Assembly: GCF_900182935.1 (NCBI RefSeq)
Contig: NZ_FXUE01000002.1
Location: forward strand, 186,001-250,000
Origin: Fibrobacter sp. UWB10
GTDB taxonomy: Bacteria; Fibrobacterota; Fibrobacteria; Fibrobacterales; Fibrobacteraceae
Length of the DNA stretch: 64,000 nucleotides
Direction of reading: 5' to 3'
This document shows, one piece after another, positions 46,840-59,395 of the stretch. Every line of letters begins with the position of its first letter. The first letter of the stretch is position 1. The position numbers and the translations under genes were made by a program. The notes below the pieces were generated by a model. The model was not told the DNA's origin. It ran no database searches and saw nothing but the letters and a program-made list of their open reading frames with translations.

Positions 46840-47550
46840 ATGAAATCGTTTGAAAATAAAGTGGTCGTGGTGACGGGCGGGGCGCACGGGATTGGTGCGA
46901 CTGTCGTGAGTGAATTCGAGAAAGAGGGCGCGAAAGTCGCCTACATCGACATTCGCGAGAATCCCTGTTTTGTGGGGGACCTTTCAAAGAAGGATGTCCT
47001 CGAAAAATTTGCGCAGTTCGTCATCGAGAAATATGGCCATGTGGATGTGTTGGTGAATAACGCGCTCCCGCTGATGAAGGGCATTGACGAATGTAGCTAC
47101 GAGGAATTCAGCTATGCGTTGGCGGTCGGCGTGACGGCTCCGTTCTACCTCGCGAAACTTTTCGCGCCGCATTTTGGGTCGGGCGCGAGCATTATAAACA
47201 TTTCTTCAAGTCGCGACCGCATGAGCCAACCGCAAACAGAAAGCTATACGGCGGCGAAGGGCGGGATTGCAGCGCTCACGCATGCGCTGGCCGTGAGTTT
47301 TGCGGGCCGCGTGCGCGTGAATTCCATTTCGCCGGGCTGGATCGATACGGATTTCAAGATCTACGAAGGCCCCGATGCTACGCAGCAGCCCGCAGGCCGC
47401 GTCGGCAACCCGCTCGACATCGCGAACATGGTACTTTATCTCGCGAGCGACAAGGCCGGATTCATTACTGGCGAAAACATCTGCATCGACGGCGGCATGA
47501 CCCGCCAGATGATTTACCACAACGATTGTGGCTGGAAATTTGAAGGGTGA
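46840..47550 (+). CDS. Short-chain dehydrogenase/reductase
   Basis: A 236-residue classical SDR. The cofactor loop TGGAHGIG follows strand 1, VDVLVNNALPL stands for NNAG, the catalytic Ser lies in IINISSSRDRM, YTAAKGG is the YxxxK pair, and ISPGWIDTDF and the C-terminal GENICIDGGMTRQ are standard. The acidic YIDIRENPC after strand 2 favours NAD(H). Substrate unknown; clostridial-type glucose/steroid SDRs look similar. GC-rich codon use resembles the core genes rather than its A/T-rich neighbour. Confidence 0.9.
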   Translation: MKSFENKVVVVTGGAHGIGATVVSEFEKEGAKVAYIDIRENPCFVGDLSKKDVLEKFAQFVIEKYGHVDVLVNNALPLMKGIDECSYEEFSYALAVGVTAPFYLAKLFAPHFGSGASIINISSSRDRMSQPQTESYTAAKGGIAALTHALAVSFAGRVRVNSISPGWIDTDFKIYEGPDATQQPAGRVGNPLDIANMVLYLASDKAGFITGENICIDGGMTRQMIYHNDCGWKFEG

Positions 47551-47582
47551 ATGCAGTTATTTGTGAGCCGTACACAAATTTT

Positions 47583-47915
47583 CTAATGAATCTCCATCTT
47601 GGAGAATAAATTCAGCACGGCGACACCGCTGATAATCAGCAAAAGCCCGATAATGGCGCCTAGGTCAGGTGTCTGCTTGAAAAAGAACATACCGCTCAGC
47701 GTAATGAGCGCAATGCCGAGCGCCGACCAGGTGGCGTATGCGATGCCGATAGGAATCGTGCGCAGGCAAAGGCTGAGCGGGTACAGCGATGCCACATAGC
47801 ACAGCAGCGAAAAGATGCTCGGAACCAGTTTCGTGAACTGTTCCGAAAATTTAAGGAGCGTTGTCCCCGCCGCCTCCATGACGATTGCTAGAATCAAGAA
47901 AAGATAATTGAGCAT
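47583..47915 (-). CDS. Small multidrug resistance (SMR/EmrE-type) transporter
   Basis: A 110-residue, four-helix proton-coupled exporter subunit that works as a dimer. The membrane-embedded Glu is in LAIVMEAAGTTLLKFS near residue 14, with CLRTIPIGIAYATWSALGIALI and the terminal GLLLIISGVAVLNLFS characteristic of the family. It could export quaternary cations or guanidinium. An AGCGGAGG ribosome-binding site and a small CTTTAT/ATAAAG palindrome precede it. No guanidine riboswitch is visible upstream. Confidence 0.9.
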   Translation of the reverse strand: MLNYLFLILAIVMEAAGTTLLKFSEQFTKLVPSIFSLLCYVASLYPLSLCLRTIPIGIAYATWSALGIALITLSGMFFFKQTPDLGAIIGLLLIISGVAVLNLFSKMEIH

Positions 47916-48004
47916 AAAACCTCCGCTTTATAATAAAGTATAAAAAAATGTGTTTTTTTTATTTGTCTTTTAGGGGCTAAATTATCTACATTTGTTATAG
48001 TTTT

Positions 48005-48024
48005 TTTATATCGGGTTACCGGAG
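48005..48024 (+). promoter_or_regulatory. Shared leader box of two FISUMP genes
   Basis: TATATCGGGTTACCGGAG occurs here and at 53531 in the same position relative to ATGAAAAAGTTT. It carries the ribosome-binding site and a CGGGTTACCGG inverted repeat. A TACATTTG box lies ~20 bp upstream in both. Confidence 0.6.
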
Positions 48025-48029
48025 GTTTT

Positions 48030-49481
48030 ATGAAAAAGTTTTCTATTGTGCGTTGGGTGGCTGAAGTCGGATTCGTTTCTTTATTGGGCGCCTGCAGTTC
48101 TGAATCCGTTATTGCAAATTCCGTGGATTCTGTGAATTCGTCTTCTTCTGAGGCAATCATTTCAAGTTCCTCGGAAGTGCCTCCCTCAAGTTCTTCTGTG
48201 CAAGAACCCTTTAATCCGAGTGATTATCGCACCTGTGATGAAAAGTACGAAGGCAAATTCTTAATGTATCAGTACACGAAAGTGCTAGATGTCATGGGTA
48301 CGTCTTTTATAATCGCAACAGATTTTTATAAATGTGAAAGTGGTAAATGGTCTGAACCTATTACAAACGCAAACCCATGGATGGAAAAAATTGGTGGCGA
48401 TGCGATTGATCGCAATGTGATTGATGGTGATGTGGTTCGCGTTGCTCCAGATGAATGGGTATGCAGTGCTGAAAATGAAGGCTTGGTGCAGTCATGGTCG
48501 TATATGTATGCGGCGAATCATGCACCAGGGCGTACGCCAACTTATTATGCTAGGTGTGAACAGGGGGACTGGGTTTTATGCGAACCGGAAAGTTCGTCAA
48601 GCAGCAGTGAAAAGTCGAGTAGCAGTGTTGTGGAGTCTTCGTCTAGCGTCGAGGAATCGTCTTCTTCTGAAGTGACGCCGGAGTCTAGTAGCAGTTCTGC
48701 TGATGTGCAGTCTAGCTCTAGCGAAGCGGAGTCAAGTTCCAGTAGTAGCGAGGACAAGGTAGATTGTTCGGCACTTCTGGAAGGAGAAACGGGTTGGAGC
48801 TGGGATGTACCGAAGGAATGCCGTTTTAACCCTGATATTGACTACGGCTCCATGACCGATGAACGTGATGGCAAAACATATAAGACGGTGAAGATTGGTG
48901 ACCAAACTTGGATGGCCGAAAACCTGAATTACTATGATGCCTCGGATTTAAATGTGAAGGAAAAGAGTTGGTGCTTTGGAAAGAAGGACAACGGGGATAG
49001 CTCTACCTGCGATGTGGCTGGCCGCCTTTACACCTGGGCTGCTGCAATCGATTCCGTAAAACTGGCGACCGATACCAAGAATCCGCAGGATTGCGGCGAT
49101 GGCAAAAAATGCGCCTTGCCCGACACTGTGTACGGGATTTGTCCGCCGGGCTGGCACTTGCCGAGCAAGGCGGAGTTTGGAACCCTGCTCACGGTGATGG
49201 GCGGGCAATCTACCGCAAGCAATGTCCTCAAATCCCAGAGCGGCTGGGCCGAAAGCAAAAATGGTGCAGATGCATTCGGCTTTACTGCATTGCCCGTCGG
49301 CGGATGGGCTCCACTCTATGGTTTCTATCTCGCGGGCAATGGGGCCTACTTCTGGAGTGCCACAGGATTCGATGCCGACTATGCCGAACACCTGGGCATA
49401 GACTATGATAAAGAGAAAACGTTCCTGGACTTCGCCTACAAGCACGGCGGGAGTTCCGTCCGTTGCCTCAAGAACAATTAG
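48030..49481 (+). CDS. FISUMP lipoprotein
   Basis: A 483-residue lipoprotein with lipobox LGAC. A first Ser-rich tether is followed by a ~110-residue module of unknown type (residues ~65-180). A second long poly-Ser/Glu linker (~185-240) leads to one FISUMP domain from ~265: IGDQTWMAENLNY, LYTWAAAID, GICPPGWHLPSKAEF, and the terminal SSVRCLKNN. Surface display is expected; the molecular role is unknown. The alpha/beta hydrolase gene starts 3 bp after its stop. Confidence 0.92.
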   Translation: MKKFSIVRWVAEVGFVSLLGACSSESVIANSVDSVNSSSSEAIISSSSEVPPSSSSVQEPFNPSDYRTCDEKYEGKFLMYQYTKVLDVMGTSFIIATDFYKCESGKWSEPITNANPWMEKIGGDAIDRNVIDGDVVRVAPDEWVCSAENEGLVQSWSYMYAANHAPGRTPTYYARCEQGDWVLCEPESSSSSSEKSSSSVVESSSSVEESSSSEVTPESSSSSADVQSSSSEAESSSSSSEDKVDCSALLEGETGWSWDVPKECRFNPDIDYGSMTDERDGKTYKTVKIGDQTWMAENLNYYDASDLNVKEKSWCFGKKDNGDSSTCDVAGRLYTWAAAIDSVKLATDTKNPQDCGDGKKCALPDTVYGICPPGWHLPSKAEFGTLLTVMGGQSTASNVLKSQSGWAESKNGADAFGFTALPVGGWAPLYGFYLAGNGAYFWSATGFDADYAEHLGIDYDKEKTFLDFAYKHGGSSVRCLKNN

Positions 49482-49484
49482 CGA

Positions 49485-50081
49485 ATGAAACCCCTTGTCA
49501 TTTACGTGCACGGAAAGGGCGGGAACGCCGACGAGGCGCTGCATTACAAGAGCCTGTTCCCTGATGCCGATGTTCGCGGCTTCGATTACAAGGCGGAAAC
49601 CCCGTGGGATGCCAAGAAGGAATTCCCGGTATATTTTGATTCTGTCGCGGCGGGCTACGGCGAAGTGACTCTTGTTGCGAATAGCATCGGGGCGTTCTTC
49701 TCGATGAATGCGCTGGGCGACAAGCTCATCAAGCAGACCTATTTTATTTCGCCGATGGTCAACTTGGAAAAGCTCATTTGCAACATGATGATGTGGGCGG
49801 GGGTCTCCGAAGAGGAACTTCGCGAAAAGAAAACCGTGCCCACGAATTTCGGCGAAACGCTTTCATGGGAATACCTGTGCTACGTGCGTGAAAATCCGAT
49901 CGAGTGGCACATCCCGACGAGAATTCTGTACGGTTCGAACGACAACCTGACCTCGCTAGAAACGATGCGCGAATTCGCCCAGAAAATCGGTGCTCCCTTG
50001 ACCGTAATGGACGGCGGCGAACACTGGTTCCACACCGCCGAACAAATGGCCTTTCTGGACAAGTGGATGCTAAATTGTTAA
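49485..50081 (+). CDS. Alpha/beta hydrolase (RBBP9/YdeN-YqiA-like)
   Basis: A 198-residue cytosolic alpha/beta hydrolase: VIYVHGKGGNADEAL at strand 1, LVANSIGAFFSM as the nucleophile elbow (NSIG in place of GxSxG), LYGSNDNLTS with the acid and GGEHWFHT with the catalytic His. It appears complete. Substrate unknown. It starts 3 bp after the FISUMP gene. Its last 62 bp occur again, 90% identical, at 51521-51582 downstream of the DUF4143 ATPase. Confidence 0.85.
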   Translation: MKPLVIYVHGKGGNADEALHYKSLFPDADVRGFDYKAETPWDAKKEFPVYFDSVAAGYGEVTLVANSIGAFFSMNALGDKLIKQTYFISPMVNLEKLICNMMMWAGVSEEELREKKTVPTNFGETLSWEYLCYVRENPIEWHIPTRILYGSNDNLTSLETMREFAQKIGAPLTVMDGGEHWFHTAEQMAFLDKWMLNC

Positions 50082-50194
50082 AAAAACACGATTTTGGCCT
50101 TATTGGTGCGAAAATTGCGAGTTTTGTTGCGTTATTCGTATGAAAAATGCAGAAATTATTGCAAAATTGATATGAATAATGTAGATTTTGGGAC

Positions 50195-51508
50195 ATGGAA
50201 CGCGAAATACTGAAAAATTTCATAGAATGGATGTCTGAGCCTGGGCGTAAGCCGTTGGTGGTGACCGGGGTGCGTCAGTGCGGAAAAACCTACGCAATCA
50301 AGGATTTTGGGAACCGTTTTTTTGAAAATTTGGCGTATTTCAATTTCGAGGGAAATACTGCCCTGCAGTCCATCTTCGAGTACGATTTCGATGTCGCTCG
50401 CATTGTGATGGAACTGGAGCGCTATTCTAAGCAGAAAATTACGGATGGGAAGACGCTTGTCTTTTTCGACGAAATCCAGGCGTGCCCCAAGGCCATAACG
50501 AGCCTGAAGTATTTCTGCGAAGATCGTTCTGGGCTTCATGTGATTGCTGCAGGATCTCTCCTGGGAGTGGTTATCCGCAAGTCGGAAATTTCTTTCCCCG
50601 TGGGGAAGGTGGAACGTCTGCAGATGTTCCCCATGAGTTTTGAGGAATTCTTGATGGCGATTGATGACGGCCGGTCCCTACTCGAAGGTCTTTCGAACTA
50701 TGACCTGCGTCGTGCGCTACCGGAAATGTACACCATTCCGTTACAGAATTATCTGAAACTTTATTATGTTGTCGGCGGTATGCCCGCTGCGGTAGCGTCG
50801 TTTGTACAGGAAAATGATTTTGAAAAAGTGGACCGAATTCTGAAAAACATTCTCTTGGATTATGGAGATGATTTTTCAAAGCATGCTCCTCCATCGGATA
50901 TACCGAAACTTGGGCTTATCTGGGATTCCGTCCCCAAGCAACTGGCAAAGGACAACAACAAGTTTATGTTCTCGCATGTGAAGGCGGGCAAGCGTGCTGC
51001 TGATTTGGAAGATGCACTGCAATGGCTTTTTAATGCGGGACTTTTGCACAAACTAGAATGTGTGACGAATGCGGAACTGCCGCTATCGAACAATGCTAAC
51101 GGCACGGTTTTCAAGGTCTATATGAGCGATGTCGGGTTGTTGCGTGTGAAGTCTGGAATTGACGCCAGCACGATTCTTGAAGAAACACCGCTGTACGCAA
51201 CGTTCAAGGGTGCGTTTACGGAAAACTATGTAATGAATGAACTTGTGAAGCAGGGGCTGCACCCTTATTTCTGGCGGTCCGAGAACAAGGCTGAACTCGA
51301 TTTTCTGATTGAGATTAAAAATGAGTTGATGCCGGTTGAAGTCAAGGCGGAAGAACACACGAAAGCGAAAAGCTATGGCGTCTTTTGCAAGAGATTTTCG
51401 CCTAAGAAAGGATTCGTACTTTCGCAAAAGAATATCGCCGTGACGAATGACGGACAAACGGAAACATTGCATTTACCGCTTTACCTGTGCGGAAAGATGT
51501 TTCGTTGA
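50195..51508 (+). CDS. DUF4143-type AAA ATPase
   Basis: A 437-residue ATPase of the AAA_14/DUF4143 group. The P-loop-like VVTGVRQCGKTYAI carries a shortened Walker A, LVFFDEIQACPKAI is Walker B, and HVIAAGSLLGV is sensor-like. A DUF4143 domain covers ~200-370 and a PDDEXK-like end reads LDFLIEIKNELMPVEVKAEEH. These proteins are common, variable accessory genes in gut bacteria with undefined function. The start MEREIL has no clear ribosome-binding site. It is inserted between the 49485 hydrolase and a partial copy of that gene's end; a remnant relative lies at 40407. Confidence 0.9.
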   Translation: MEREILKNFIEWMSEPGRKPLVVTGVRQCGKTYAIKDFGNRFFENLAYFNFEGNTALQSIFEYDFDVARIVMELERYSKQKITDGKTLVFFDEIQACPKAITSLKYFCEDRSGLHVIAAGSLLGVVIRKSEISFPVGKVERLQMFPMSFEEFLMAIDDGRSLLEGLSNYDLRRALPEMYTIPLQNYLKLYYVVGGMPAAVASFVQENDFEKVDRILKNILLDYGDDFSKHAPPSDIPKLGLIWDSVPKQLAKDNNKFMFSHVKAGKRAADLEDALQWLFNAGLLHKLECVTNAELPLSNNANGTVFKVYMSDVGLLRVKSGIDASTILEETPLYATFKGAFTENYVMNELVKQGLHPYFWRSENKAELDFLIEIKNELMPVEVKAEEHTKAKSYGVFCKRFSPKKGFVLSQKNIAVTNDGQTETLHLPLYLCGKMFR

Positions 51509-51520
51509 CTGTGATGTGCG

Positions 51521-51586
51521 GGCGGCGAACACTGGTTCCATACCGCCGAACAGATGGTTTTTCTGGATAAGTGGATTCTAAAATAA
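51521..51586 (+). pseudogene. Duplicate of the hydrolase 3' end (22 codons)
   Basis: Reads GGEHWFHTAEQMVFLDKWIL then stop, against GGEHWFHTAEQMAFLDKWML of the gene ending at 50081. Over 62 bp there are six mismatches, mostly synonymous. The 16 bases 51511-51526 also equal part of the terminator hairpin at 56244-56259, so the junction lies at the shared GGCGGC. Confidence 0.85.
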
Positions 51587-51649
51587 AATCTATTGAAGGT
51601 TGTTGAATATATTACATTTGCACTGAATGAACTTTAGTAGGGGGCGTTT

Positions 51650-52792
51650 ATGAAGAAGATTCTTGATCTGTCATCTTGGCGGACAGCACTTGGCAACTTG
51701 TTGCCTAGTGCGCATGGCCACCAAGGTGGGAGCCGCAAGGCGGCGATAGGATTCATGCTTATTGTGGCGTTTGCTGTTGTCGGGTGCGACGATAGTTCGT
51801 CGGCGTCTGCAGGGCCGAATGATGAACCGGCTGTAGAGTCTTCTTCTGCTGCTGAGCACAGCTCGTCGAGTTCTAGTGCCCAGAAGAATTCGTCCAGCAG
51901 TGAAAAGGCGAAGTCTTCGTCTTCGAAAGAAGAGAATGTTGCTGAAGAATCGTCGAGTTCGGTAAAGTCGGAATCTTCGCCTTCTGTTGAGAAGACTCTG
52001 TCGAGTAGCAGTTCTACTGATGTGCTGTCTAGTTCTAGCGAAACTGTGGTGAAATCCTGTAGTAGTGAGGGTGTGTTGTCGTCAAGTTCTCAGATTGACT
52101 GGAAATGGGATTTGCCGAAAGAGGCTTACCTGAATCCGGAAATAGAGTATGATTCTATTACGGACGCTCGTGATGGTAAAGTGTATAAGACTGTAAAAAT
52201 TGGTGACCAAATATGGATGGCCGAGAACTTGAACTTTGACCCTGGTCAGGGTGGTTCGGGAGAGAATAAATATGACTGGTCTTGGTGTTTTCTTAATGAT
52301 GCTAAAAACTGCGATGTGATCGGTCGCTTTTACACATGGGCGGCGGCAATTGACTCAGTGAAATTGGCTAACGATGTGGACAACCCGCAGGATTGCGGCT
52401 ATGACAAAACCTGTACCTTGCCCGATACGGTGTACGGAGTTTGTCCGCCGGGTTGGCACTTGCCTGATTCAACAGAATGGGAAGTCTTATTTTTGACTGT
52501 TGGTGGTCAATCAGTAGCCGGCAAGGTGCTCAAGTCTCAGGTTGGTTGGAAAGATAATGGATATAATAATGGAAATGGTTCGGATGCTGTAGGATTCTCT
52601 GCGTTGCCAGCTGGCAATGGACAAGTCGGTGGTAAATTCTATCGTTATGGTGGTAACGCCCTTTTTTGGAGTGCCTTCGAAATCGATTCTACCTATGCAG
52701 GTGATGTGAACTTGAACTACCTTGATGAGTATGCAGGTGTGGCCGGCCATAATAAAATCAATGCGATGTCTGTCCGTTGCGTAAAGGACTAG
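51650..52792 (+). CDS. FISUMP lipoprotein with extended N-region
   Basis: A 380-residue lipoprotein. The hydrophobic core and lipobox (FMLIVAFAVVGC) match the FISUMP protein at 53554, but about 26 extra residues (LSSWRTALGNLLPSAHGHQ...) lie between MKK and that core. This leaves an unusually long n-region of ~35 residues. A Ser/Glu-rich tether runs to ~140. One FISUMP domain follows, with IGDQIWMAENLNF, FYTWAAAID, GVCPPGWHLPDSTEWEVL and MSVRCVKD. A TACATTTG box lies upstream and AGGGGG provides the ribosome-binding site. Function unknown. Confidence 0.9.
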   Translation: MKKILDLSSWRTALGNLLPSAHGHQGGSRKAAIGFMLIVAFAVVGCDDSSSASAGPNDEPAVESSSAAEHSSSSSSAQKNSSSSEKAKSSSSKEENVAEESSSSVKSESSPSVEKTLSSSSSTDVLSSSSETVVKSCSSEGVLSSSSQIDWKWDLPKEAYLNPEIEYDSITDARDGKVYKTVKIGDQIWMAENLNFDPGQGGSGENKYDWSWCFLNDAKNCDVIGRFYTWAAAIDSVKLANDVDNPQDCGYDKTCTLPDTVYGVCPPGWHLPDSTEWEVLFLTVGGQSVAGKVLKSQVGWKDNGYNNGNGSDAVGFSALPAGNGQVGGKFYRYGGNALFWSAFEIDSTYAGDVNLNYLDEYAGVAGHNKINAMSVRCVKD

Positions 52793-55612: not shown

Positions 55613-55876
55613 ATGTACAATGTAACTATAACCAAAAGAGCCCAAAGAAGTGCTGCGACGATGCCGAAGGCTGTGCAAAACAAGCTCAAGGCTCTCGTTC
55701 AGTCTCTAAAGGTCTCTGGGCCGGTGCAGCCATTGTTTTGGCATTACTCCAAGCTCGGAGGCGACAGGTATCATTGTCACTTGGCGCTAAACTGGGTGGC
55801 ATGTTGGACTTGTAAGGATAGCTCTATAGATATTGAGGTGTATTATGCTGGCAGTCGTGAAAAGGCCCCGTATTGA
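55613..55876 (+). CDS. RelE/ParE-like toxin
   Basis: An 87-residue small basic protein of the RelE-like cytotoxic nuclease group: YNVTITKRAQRSAATMPKAVQNKLKALVQSL forms the N-terminal strands/helices, and HYSKLGGDRYHCHLALNWVACW and IEVYYAGSREKAPY form the C-terminal sheet. The EVYYxGSREKAPY end is typical of a subfamily paired with a downstream HTH antitoxin. Expected to cleave mRNA in the ribosome. It overlaps the antitoxin gene by 32 bp, giving coupled translation with the toxin first. Confidence 0.85.
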   Translation: MYNVTITKRAQRSAATMPKAVQNKLKALVQSLKVSGPVQPLFWHYSKLGGDRYHCHLALNWVACWTCKDSSIDIEVYYAGSREKAPY

Positions 55877-56210
55877 AATCAGGGCGAAACATATCCCCGC
55901 TCCGCTTGTCCGGTTTTTGAAGAATACCTATAAACCGGAGAATGTAATCGTCAGTGACGAAGATGTTGCTGTTCCTTTTGAAGAATCGGAATGGTTTAAG
56001 TCCTTGGAAACGACTCCGGGCGAGATGATTGTGGCAAATAGGGATTTGCGCAATTGGTCGCAAGTGACTTTGGCGGAGAAACTTGGAATCCAGGTGCAAA
56101 ACCTGTGTGCTATGGAAAACGGACGCAGGACGGTTTCCCGTAAGATGGCGGTAAAACTTGGTGAAATCTTTGGAACGGATCCTGCGGCATTCTTTGATTT
56201 CGGGAAGTAG
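55845..56210 (+). CDS. HTH (Xre-type) antitoxin
   Basis: A 121-residue DNA-binding antitoxin. An N-terminal ~60-residue region binds the toxin by analogy. An Xre HTH (residues ~70-115: LRNWSQVTLAEKLGIQVQNLCAMENGRRTVSRKMAVKLGEIF) follows. The ATG at 55845 is inside the toxin gene. A hairpin terminator follows at 56239. With the preceding toxin it makes a reversed-order (toxin-antitoxin) pair, likely autoregulated. Confidence 0.88.
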   Translation: MLAVVKRPRIEIRAKHIPAPLVRFLKNTYKPENVIVSDEDVAVPFEESEWFKSLETTPGEMIVANRDLRNWSQVTLAEKLGIQVQNLCAMENGRRTVSRKMAVKLGEIFGTDPAAFFDFGK

Positions 56211-56235: not shown

Positions 56236-56265
56236 AGCCGTCCGTGATGTGCGGGCGGCTTTGCT
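56236..56265 (+). terminator. Terminator of the toxin-antitoxin genes
   Basis: GCCGTCCG / CGGGCGGC stem with a TGATGTG loop followed by a T-rich stretch. Sixteen bases of its loop and right arm (56244-56259) recur at 51511. Confidence 0.75.
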
Positions 56266-56268
56266 CTT

Positions 56269-57018
56269 TTATTGGGCGAATTCGACTTTGCTGAAAGACT
56301 TGTAATGGTTGCCGGTGTAATAGATATTGCAACCGCTGCTATAGACGAGGCGGTTGGTTCCTCGGTTGCTTGCGAAGTAATCGACATCGGCTTCGTACCA
56401 GGTCCCTTGGGGCAATAATCCTTCGCGATTTTCGAAATAATCTCCGCCAATCATCACGCCGAGAGTTGTTAAAGGATTGAAATTCCATTTGGTAAAATAC
56501 CGGCCGGTTTTTTGCTCGTAGAGCCTTTTACCTTCGCTTTTGCTCACGTAGTTCGAAGGAAGACTCCCATTTTCGCAAATGTATTTGGCGACTTCATTCT
56601 TTGATGTGTACTGAGTTCCTGGTTGGCTTGTTGAAACTATCGGGGCTGCACTTGAGGAGAATGGCGACGATTTGCCGACAAATGTATAGATACCGGATAC
56701 GATTGCCAAGATAACGCATAGCGCGAACATAAAACTGCGCAGCGATTTGTTCTTTTTATGGTAGCCGGTGTTTGATGAGTAACGCGGTCGCGGTTCTTGA
56801 CGCAAAGCTACGCCTTCGAGGGTGCCTTTCTCGATTCGGGCACCTTTCTCGGTTTTACCGAAACTACTGATGATGATTGTGTCGCCGACTCGTGGCTGTC
56901 GAACAGGATGCCCTAATGCTGAAATGTGGAAGAAAAACTTTGTTCCGTTCACTGTGGCGAAACCGAATCCTTTTTCTTCGTTCCATTGCGTGACGGTAGC
57001 TTTATTTGTGATGGGCAT
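56269..57018 (-). CDS. Cold-shock domain - transmembrane helix - barnase-type RNase fusion
   Basis: A 249-residue fusion. Residues 1-70 are a cold-shock domain with RNP-1 KGFGFA and RNP-2-like FFFHIS. One transmembrane helix (FMFALCVILAIVSGIYTFV, ~96-114) is preceded by HKKNKSLR. Residues ~138-246 match barnase closely: NYVSKSEGKRL, IGGDYFENREGLLP, TWYEADVDY, NRLVYSS, NHYKSFSKV. Barnase catalytic residues are kept: Lys160, Glu209 (general base), Arg219/Arg223 and His238. The basic stretch before the helix predicts the cold-shock domain inside and the RNase outside. No barstar is recognised. The gene lies 46 bp downstream of the 57065 gene, possibly as an operon. I know of no described protein with this order. 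Confidence 0.88.
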   Translation of the reverse strand: MPITNKATVTQWNEEKGFGFATVNGTKFFFHISALGHPVRQPRVGDTIIISSFGKTEKGARIEKGTLEGVALRQEPRPRYSSNTGYHKKNKSLRSFMFALCVILAIVSGIYTFVGKSSPFSSSAAPIVSTSQPGTQYTSKNEVAKYICENGSLPSNYVSKSEGKRLYEQKTGRYFTKWNFNPLTTLGVMIGGDYFENREGLLPQGTWYEADVDYFASNRGTNRLVYSSGCNIYYTGNHYKSFSKVEFAQ

Positions 57019-57916: not shown

Positions 57917-59395
57917 ATGAATTATTTCAATTCTATCCCTATGCGTCGCCAACTCGAAGAAATTGGCCACTGCCGTTTCATGGAACATTCTGAATTCAGC
58001 CGTGGTGTTGAAGCCCTCAAGGGCAAGAAGATCGTGTTCGTCGGTTGCGGTGCCCAGGGTCTCCATCAGGGTCTTGACCTGCGCGATAGCGGCCTCGACG
58101 TCTCTTACACGCTCCGCAAGGAAGCCATCGAACAGAAGCGCCAGTCCTGGAAGAACGCTACTGAAAACGGCTTCAAGGTCGGTACCTACGAAGAAATGAT
58201 TCCGGATGCAGACCTCGTTTGCAACCTCACACCGGACAAGCAGCACCACAACGTGATTCCGGCCATCATGAAGCTCATGAAGAAGGGCGCAGCCCTCTCT
58301 TACAGCCACGGCTTCAACATCGTTGAAGAAGGCCAGGAAATCCGCAAGGACATCACCGTGATCATGGTCGCCCCGAAGGGCCCGGGTTCCGAAGTCCGTA
58401 GCGAATACGTTCGCGGTTTCGGTATGCCCTGCCTTATCGCTGTGCACCCGGAAAACGACCCCGAAGGTAAGGGTTGGGACTATGCAAAGGCTTACGCCGC
58501 TGGCCTCCATGCCGACCGTCCGGGCGTTCTCGAAAGTTCTTTCGTTGCCGAAGTGAAGTCCGACCTCATGGGCGAACAGACCATCCTTTGCGGTATGCTC
58601 CAGACCGGCACCATCCTTTGCTACGACAAGATGGTGAAGGATTTCGGCGTTGAACCGGCTTACGCGGTCAAGCTGCTCCAGTACGGCTGGGAAACCATTT
58701 CCGAAGCCCTGAAGCACGGCGGCATCACCAACATGATGGACCGTCTCTCCAACCCGGCCAAGATCCGCGCCACGGAACTCGCCGAAAAGATGAAGAAGAT
58801 CATGAAGCCGCTCTACTGCGAACACCAGGACAACATCATCTCTGGCAAGTTCTCCAGCACCATGATGGTCGACTGGGAAGCCGGCGACAAGGATTTGCTC
58901 AAGTGGCGTGGCGAAACGGGCGAGCTCGAATTCGAAAAGGTCGAAGCTACCGACAAGGTCATCACCGAACAGGAATACTTCGACCGCGGCGTTCTCATGA
59001 CCGCCATGATCAAGGCCGGTGTGGAACTTGCATTCGAAACCATGTGCTCTGTGGGCATCAAGCCGATGAGCGCCTACTACGAATCCCTCCACGAAACTCC
59101 GCTCATTGCCAACCTCATCGCTCGTAAGAAGTTGTACGAAATGAACCGCGTGATCAGCGACACCGCCGAATACGGTTGCTACCTGTTCGCCAACAAGTGC
59201 GTGCCTCTGCTCGCCGACTTCATGAAGAACGAAGTGAAGAAGGACGACATCGGCGCTATCTACGGCGAAGGCAAGACCACCGCTGTGGATAACGAAGAAC
59301 TGATCAAGGTGAACAAGAACATCCGTCAGCATCCGGTGGAAGAAGTCGGTGCTTGGCTGCGTGAACGCATGAGCGGCATGACGAAAGTTGTCTAA
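57917..59395 (+). CDS. ilvC: Ketol-acid reductoisomerase, class II
   Basis: Acetohydroxyacid isomeroreductase (492 residues), second common step of valine/isoleucine synthesis, converting acetolactate to dihydroxyisovalerate with NADPH and Mg2+. The long class II form (two knotted C-terminal domains, as in E. coli) is indicated by length. Motifs: [20 protein letters not shown] (Rossmann), [15 protein letters not shown] (phosphate site favouring NADPH), [33 protein letters not shown] with the Mg ligands Asp/Glu, and a later GYLFANKC-like [12 protein letters not shown]. An AGAGG ribosome-binding site lies ahead. Codon use is strongly biased, as in highly expressed genes. Confidence 0.97.

Follow-up and report, generated by a model that had tools for sequence, protein, structure and literature searches.

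Gene-exchange hotspots that lack mobile elements, and in which recombination acts at flanking core genes, were described in 80 species in 2017 (PMC5635113). In core defence hotspots, for example those of Pseudomonas aeruginosa, candidate defence genes of different kinds replace one another between a fixed pair of core genes (PMC10250203). One such candidate, PDC-S01, is an ATPase domain fused to a member of the PD-(D/E)-X-K superfamily; validation is pending for most PDCs (PMC12988326). PDC-S01 is very common in rumen genomes (PMC13356809).

Here we analysed 64 000 nucleotides of Fibrobacter sp. UWB10 (the window; contig NZ_FXUE01000002.1, positions 186 001 to 250 000), in which the 3′ end of a hydrolase gene occurs twice, on either side of an ATPase gene. 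We put the probability at roughly 0.82 that the haplotype of the window is recombinant, shaped by homologous recombination and short-homology joins at a hotspot of gene exchange between an SDR gene and ilvC in which no integrase was found. The duplicated gene end is a scar left at one chromosomal spot where candidate anti-phage and toxin-antitoxin genes have been shuffled repeatedly, not the mark of one recent insertion of an ATPase gene. Comparison across the genus revealed a variable interval, mosaic identity, re-paired flanks, recombination within the ATPase gene and an old join.

The locus is a well documented new example of an already known kind of hotspot. It shares with the hotspots of PMC5635113 conserved flanks, fast gene turnover, the lack of a recognisable integrase (in the window interval) and raised divergence and mosaicism at a flank, and the proposed mechanism fits those published hotspots, which lack mobile elements. 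It differs from them in having base-level scars (hydrolase tails and a terminator arm) that record joins, in the presence of an rve-type transposase in one Fibrobacter haplotype (G032) and in that DNA uptake is here a proposed step. The locus resembles the defence hotspots of PMC10250203 in that what lies between its two core genes alternates among candidate defence genes; it differs in that these are putative (PDC-S01, S04 and S27) and interspersed with FISUMP and toxin-antitoxin genes. The locus gives a base-level view of candidate defence genes gaining new neighbours, with no integrase found, in an important rumen genus; the scars retained there allow tests of how, and in what order, the exchanges took place, and it is a place to seek more Fibrobacter defence genes.

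A variable interval between two conserved genes

The left border of the interval is an SDR oxidoreductase gene (46840–47550, + strand), with 96–99% protein identity in most clade relatives at a nucleotide identity of merely about 91–92%. The right border (57917–59395, +) is a gene that we take to be ilvC-like from recognition of its protein sequence. Between 61 and 80 genomes of the genus, many of them fragmented assemblies, were searched for the interval, which spans 1050–17015 bp among the 31 haplotypes with both flanks visible. Four species hold just the SDR gene, a ribonuclease-like gene and ilvC (about 1.1–1.3 kb). Other haplotypes carry FISUMP genes, the hydrolase, HigBA-like and RelB/PIN pairs and DUF2442 proteins, together with candidate defence genes: a Fic protein (PDC-S04), two kinds of PDC-S01 ATPase and PDC-S27. 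The same conserved genes flank content that differs between genomes, as expected of a hotspot. No integrase or mobile element was found in the window interval among the annotated proteins searched, which include only some of the small open reading frames.

The ribonuclease-like gene of the window (56269–57018, −) encodes a barnase-type ribonuclease domain (PF00545), and its N-terminus resembles a cold-shock domain; it is this PF00545 gene that stands alone between SDR and ilvC in the four species with the shortest intervals. At 55613–56210 lies a HigBA-like pair, in which an 87-residue protein without a profile match overlaps an HTH antitoxin-like gene. An Rfam search of 46–60 kb gave no match.

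Two copies of a hydrolase gene end

The alpha/beta-hydrolase-like gene (49485–50081, +; Pfam matches below the curated cut-off) is intact in the window and deleted or truncated in many relatives. Its 3′ end at 50013–50074 recurs at 51521–51582, 1508 bp away, with six mismatches in 62 bp (90% identity), as the first-pass annotation had reported. The DNA-level match has E = 6.6e−19, which excludes chance, and a search of the whole source genome (3.48 Mb, 10 contigs) found only these two copies. Five codons differ. The statement that most changes are synonymous was roughly right, in that three of the five are (CAC/CAT, CAA/CAG and GAC/GAT), but the other two replace Ala with Val (GCC/GTT) and Met with Ile (ATG/ATT). 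The states of copy 2 are found in other hydrolase alleles, with GGTTTTTCTGGATAAGTGG present not only in two intact genes (G032 and G069) but also in the G071 copy, which has an internal deletion. Copy 2 is therefore a different allele rather than a product of decay, and the earlier proposal of a diverged allele was borne out.

The repeat was first taken to begin at 51521. Tails in G007, G015, G029 and G091, which are free of terminator-like changes, visibly start at the ATPase stop codon, placing the beginning of hydrolase homology in the window at about 51505. The hydrolase-derived tail thus defined runs from 51505 to 51586 (+), from the ATPase stop codon to its own TAA at 51584–51586. No special structure above chance was detected at the second copy. 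A dispersed, integron-like cassette array was considered and dropped, the tail occurring nowhere else in the source genome.

Both copies lie within one genome and internal hydrolase deletions are frequent, so a local tandem duplication followed by deletion, with no exchange between lineages, might be envisaged. It is the least probable of the explanations we weighed, given that copy 2 carries the states of other alleles and runs into the FISUMP sequence of another haplotype, and that the ATPase and tail also occur without any upstream hydrolase.

The ATPase gene and its join to the hydrolase tail

The gene between the two copies (50195–51508, +) encodes AAA_14 and DUF4143 domains and matches the PADLOC PDC-S01 profile PDLC04786 essentially in full (E 4e−164, residues 1–435 of 437). 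The motifs GVRQCGKT and ELDF...VEVK are readable in the sequence, consistent with an ATPase joined to a PD-(D/E)XK-like domain. We thus regard it as a putative PDC-S01 defence gene whose anti-phage role is that of a candidate only. A sequence search found no solved structure for it. It resembles PDC-S01 in its full-length profile match and both domains, and differs at its C-terminus, where fusion to the hydrolase tail has put KMFR-stop in place of the original end. The gene is preceded by a leader (50082–50194, +); the final ~65 nt of this leader (from ~50127) are found as well in front of ATPase genes that directly follow the SDR gene, and leader remnants without an ATPase are found in G036, G083 and G080.

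The ATPase occurs at at least 95% protein identity in 10 other genomes, and G012 additionally holds the gene start at a contig end. Wherever the downstream side is visible, hydrolase sequence begins at the ATPase end (in G007, for instance, TTGACCGTGATGGACGGCGGCGAACAC), except in G005. The join lies at the same place in seven other genomes (G007, G032, G071, G085, G015, G029 and G091), and also in a contig of G001 identical to that of G091 and as a remnant in G093. The G001 contig (C71, L057) was not treated as independent, its ATPase being 100% identical to that of G091 (L137); a further SDR locus of G001 lies on C81, and the short contig C71 may be misbinned. The ATPase of G005 has a native-looking end, KMRMFI-stop, with neither tail nor terminator arm, from which it follows that the hydrolase supplies the stop codon in the window. 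Most likely, the hydrolase tail does nothing else.

What lies to the left of the ATPase varies. The SDR gene is directly upstream, with no hydrolase, in G015, G029, G085 and G091, and before the ATPase remnant of G093, whereas an intact or internally deleted hydrolase precedes the ATPase in the window, G007, G032, G067, G071 and G012 (in G071, about 1.8 kb of other sequence separates the two). The right junction CACC-TATATTAATAAAACC is common to G007, with the hydrolase on its left, and to G015, G029 and G085, with SDR on their left. The flanks therefore re-assort.

Relative to the window, the ATPase genes of the other genomes (G005 aside) show dS of 0.13–0.17; in the same genomes the SDR gene is far above this (0.38–0.53) and ilvC slightly below (0.07–0.13). 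In an alignment of nine ATPase genes, 57% of informative site pairs are incompatible (Hudson–Kaplan Rm 27), although such incompatibilities could also arise by repeated mutation, and a PHI-type test gave p = 0.009 with a 100 nt window and 0.25 with 300 nt. The ATPase gene is strongly recombined, and its join to the hydrolase tail is old.

A mosaic relative and an empty allele

In the compared sequence around the locus, the same-species genome G060 is mostly 95–97% identical to the window. Its SDR gene is at 91% (dS 0.51) and its hydrolase at about 90% (dS 0.40), while ilvC has a dS of 0.08. Between SDR and hydrolase, 47576–49375 is mostly 98–100% identical, with one 150 nt bin at 95%. The segment 50069–57876 is replaced, except for pieces of FISUMP genes, one of them 708 nt at 95%; the replaced part includes a PDC-S27 ATPase (DUF234; L096:5206–6609) where the window has PDC-S01. 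The SDR dS of 0.51 against 0.08 for ilvC in this locus-level comparison, with the recombination seen in the ATPase, points to homologous recombination at or near the flanks. The 47576–49375 cassette contains SMR-like and FISUMP genes; as it is near-identical in the two genomes and both its sides differ by about 10%, either the cassette moved or its sides were replaced recently.

It had been predicted that an empty site would show a hydrolase ending like copy 2 and running straight into the FISUMP gene at 51650. Such an allele exists in G028, where window positions 51506–51722 are matched unbroken (91.2% over 216 nt), so that the hydrolase end leads into the FISUMP gene and the ATPase is missing; the intergenic stretch and FISUMP gene of the window (51587–52792, +; gene at 51650–52792) there directly follow the hydrolase end. 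However, G028 is another species with a different left half, and its hydrolase carries an internal deletion of its own that joins codons 16 and 133 in frame.

A terminator arm within the tail

An intrinsic terminator (56236–56260, +; hairpin −18 kcal/mol, z −3.5) lies behind the HTH gene. The tail contains 16 bases (51511–51526, +) exactly equal to 56244–56259, the right arm of this hairpin, as the first-pass annotation had noted; the half copy forms no hairpin and its structure is no better than chance (z −0.3). That annotation regarded it as half of the ATPase's own terminator. The terminator instead recurs at the SDR–ilvC locus in many genomes, mostly directly after DUF2442-type or HTH genes and also behind other genes there. 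The G005 ATPase lacks such an arm, and the terminator belongs to neighbouring genes rather than to the ATPase. A terminator-like patch is present in the post-ATPase tails of G071 and G093, as in the window; the tails of G007, G015, G029 and G091 lack it, and G005 has neither tail nor arm.

A crossover within the shared GGCGGC patch had also been proposed. It is plausible, in both directions and later than the ATPase–tail join, because G032 shows the converse join (ATPase, hydrolase tail as far as GTGATGGACGG, then the 3′ side of a terminator, then a FISUMP gene) and the G071 tail has GTGATATGC, the terminator allele of G036 and G080. The G032 sequence after GTGATGGACGG is GGCGGCTATTGTGTTGAAGCTTTGGCC, which resembles the terminator 3′ side of G088, G011, G083 and G036. 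Alternatively, the window 16-mer may have arisen by stepwise mutation, GGACGGC to TGCGGGCGGC.

The empty allele of G028, the exact 16-mer, the converse join of G032 and the A-allele in G071 would all suit a single recent capture, as first suggested, in which the ATPase arrived with half its own terminator and was linked to the hydrolase at GGCGGC. We consider this improbable, since the join is present in seven other genomes, four of them without an upstream hydrolase, and starts at the ATPase end; a dS of 0.13–0.17 is not recent, and the terminator is that of other genes. The ‘recent’ and ‘own terminator’ parts of the proposal are already contradicted.

Proposed order of events

An old join fused the end of the ATPase gene, of the PDC-S01 kind, to the final ~80 nt of a hydrolase allele, and the resulting unit is now seen in several genomes, sometimes behind SDR and sometimes behind a hydrolase. 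In the recombinant-haplotype reading that we prefer, the join was probably a deletion in an SDR–ATPase–hydrolase order. A deletion origin is suggested by the Fic genes: in G011 the gene precedes an intact hydrolase (SDR–Fic–hydrolase), and in G025, G027, G002 and G069 the same gene is followed by a hydrolase tail, joined at GAAAAACG, the comparison resting on G011 against G025, G027 and G002. Outside DNA would then enter and be exchanged by homologous recombination, with the flanks, the ATPase and the hydrolase as the shared sequence. Left and right halves re-paired in this way would explain why an intact hydrolase stands left of the ATPase and a tail plus FISUMP gene to its right, and short common patches (hydrolase tail, terminator arm) may yield occasional additional joins. 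We infer this order because no haplotype with SDR, ATPase and intact hydrolase was found among the genomes compared. A literature search on DNA uptake by Fibrobacter turned up no paper.

Hydrolase deletions and promoter-like stubs

The in-frame hydrolase deletion joining codons 16 and 133 is found in five genomes (G028, G001:C81, G082, G067 and G092), at loci L051, L052, L103, L117 and L135. Further internal deletions, for example nt 14/543, likewise retain both gene ends. A sharp insertion or attachment site at hydrolase codon 195 was rejected as a candidate; the ends concerned (WIRE, WILK and WMLNC) merely vary around the natural stop.

The layout of gene, insert and copy of the gene end is what site-specific integration into the hydrolase 3′ end would leave, whether by an integrase or a cassette system; the repeats would then be the attachment sites, and many different continuations do start within the last hydrolase codons. 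Neither an integrase nor the fixed attachment sites of an integrative element or integron cassette were found, however: the annotated genes in the window interval include no integrase, the copies differ at 6 of 62 sites, and the left edges of the tails vary (hydrolase nt ~505, ~511, 543, 547 and 565). Integron-type GTTRRRY/RYYYAAC boxes were not seen by eye in the tail, and the confinement of tails to this locus in the source genome also speaks against it. With no integrase found and variable edges, such integration is improbable, though less so than tandem duplication.

FISUMP-type continuations have a common promoter-like TGGACA-N17/18-TATATT overlapping the hydrolase end. We have entertained the doubtful idea that the end of the hydrolase gene, together with the terminator arm that resembles it, forms a recurrent, recombinase-free exchange joint, in which short patches kept beside the cassettes as promoter or terminator parts would provide homology for swapping candidate defence cassettes; we rate it unlikely, if less so than a single recent capture. 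In 10 genomes, the SDR stop is closely followed by 20–25 nt left over from the hydrolase 3′ end, a stub that separates SDR from a FISUMP gene. The spacing from GGACA/GAACA to TATATT/TACATT in these stubs is always 17 nt, and this constancy suggests that the stub has been retained as part of a promoter. Stubs of this L083 type are found at loci L101, L100, L034, L117, L051, L115, L099, L109, L135 and L032.
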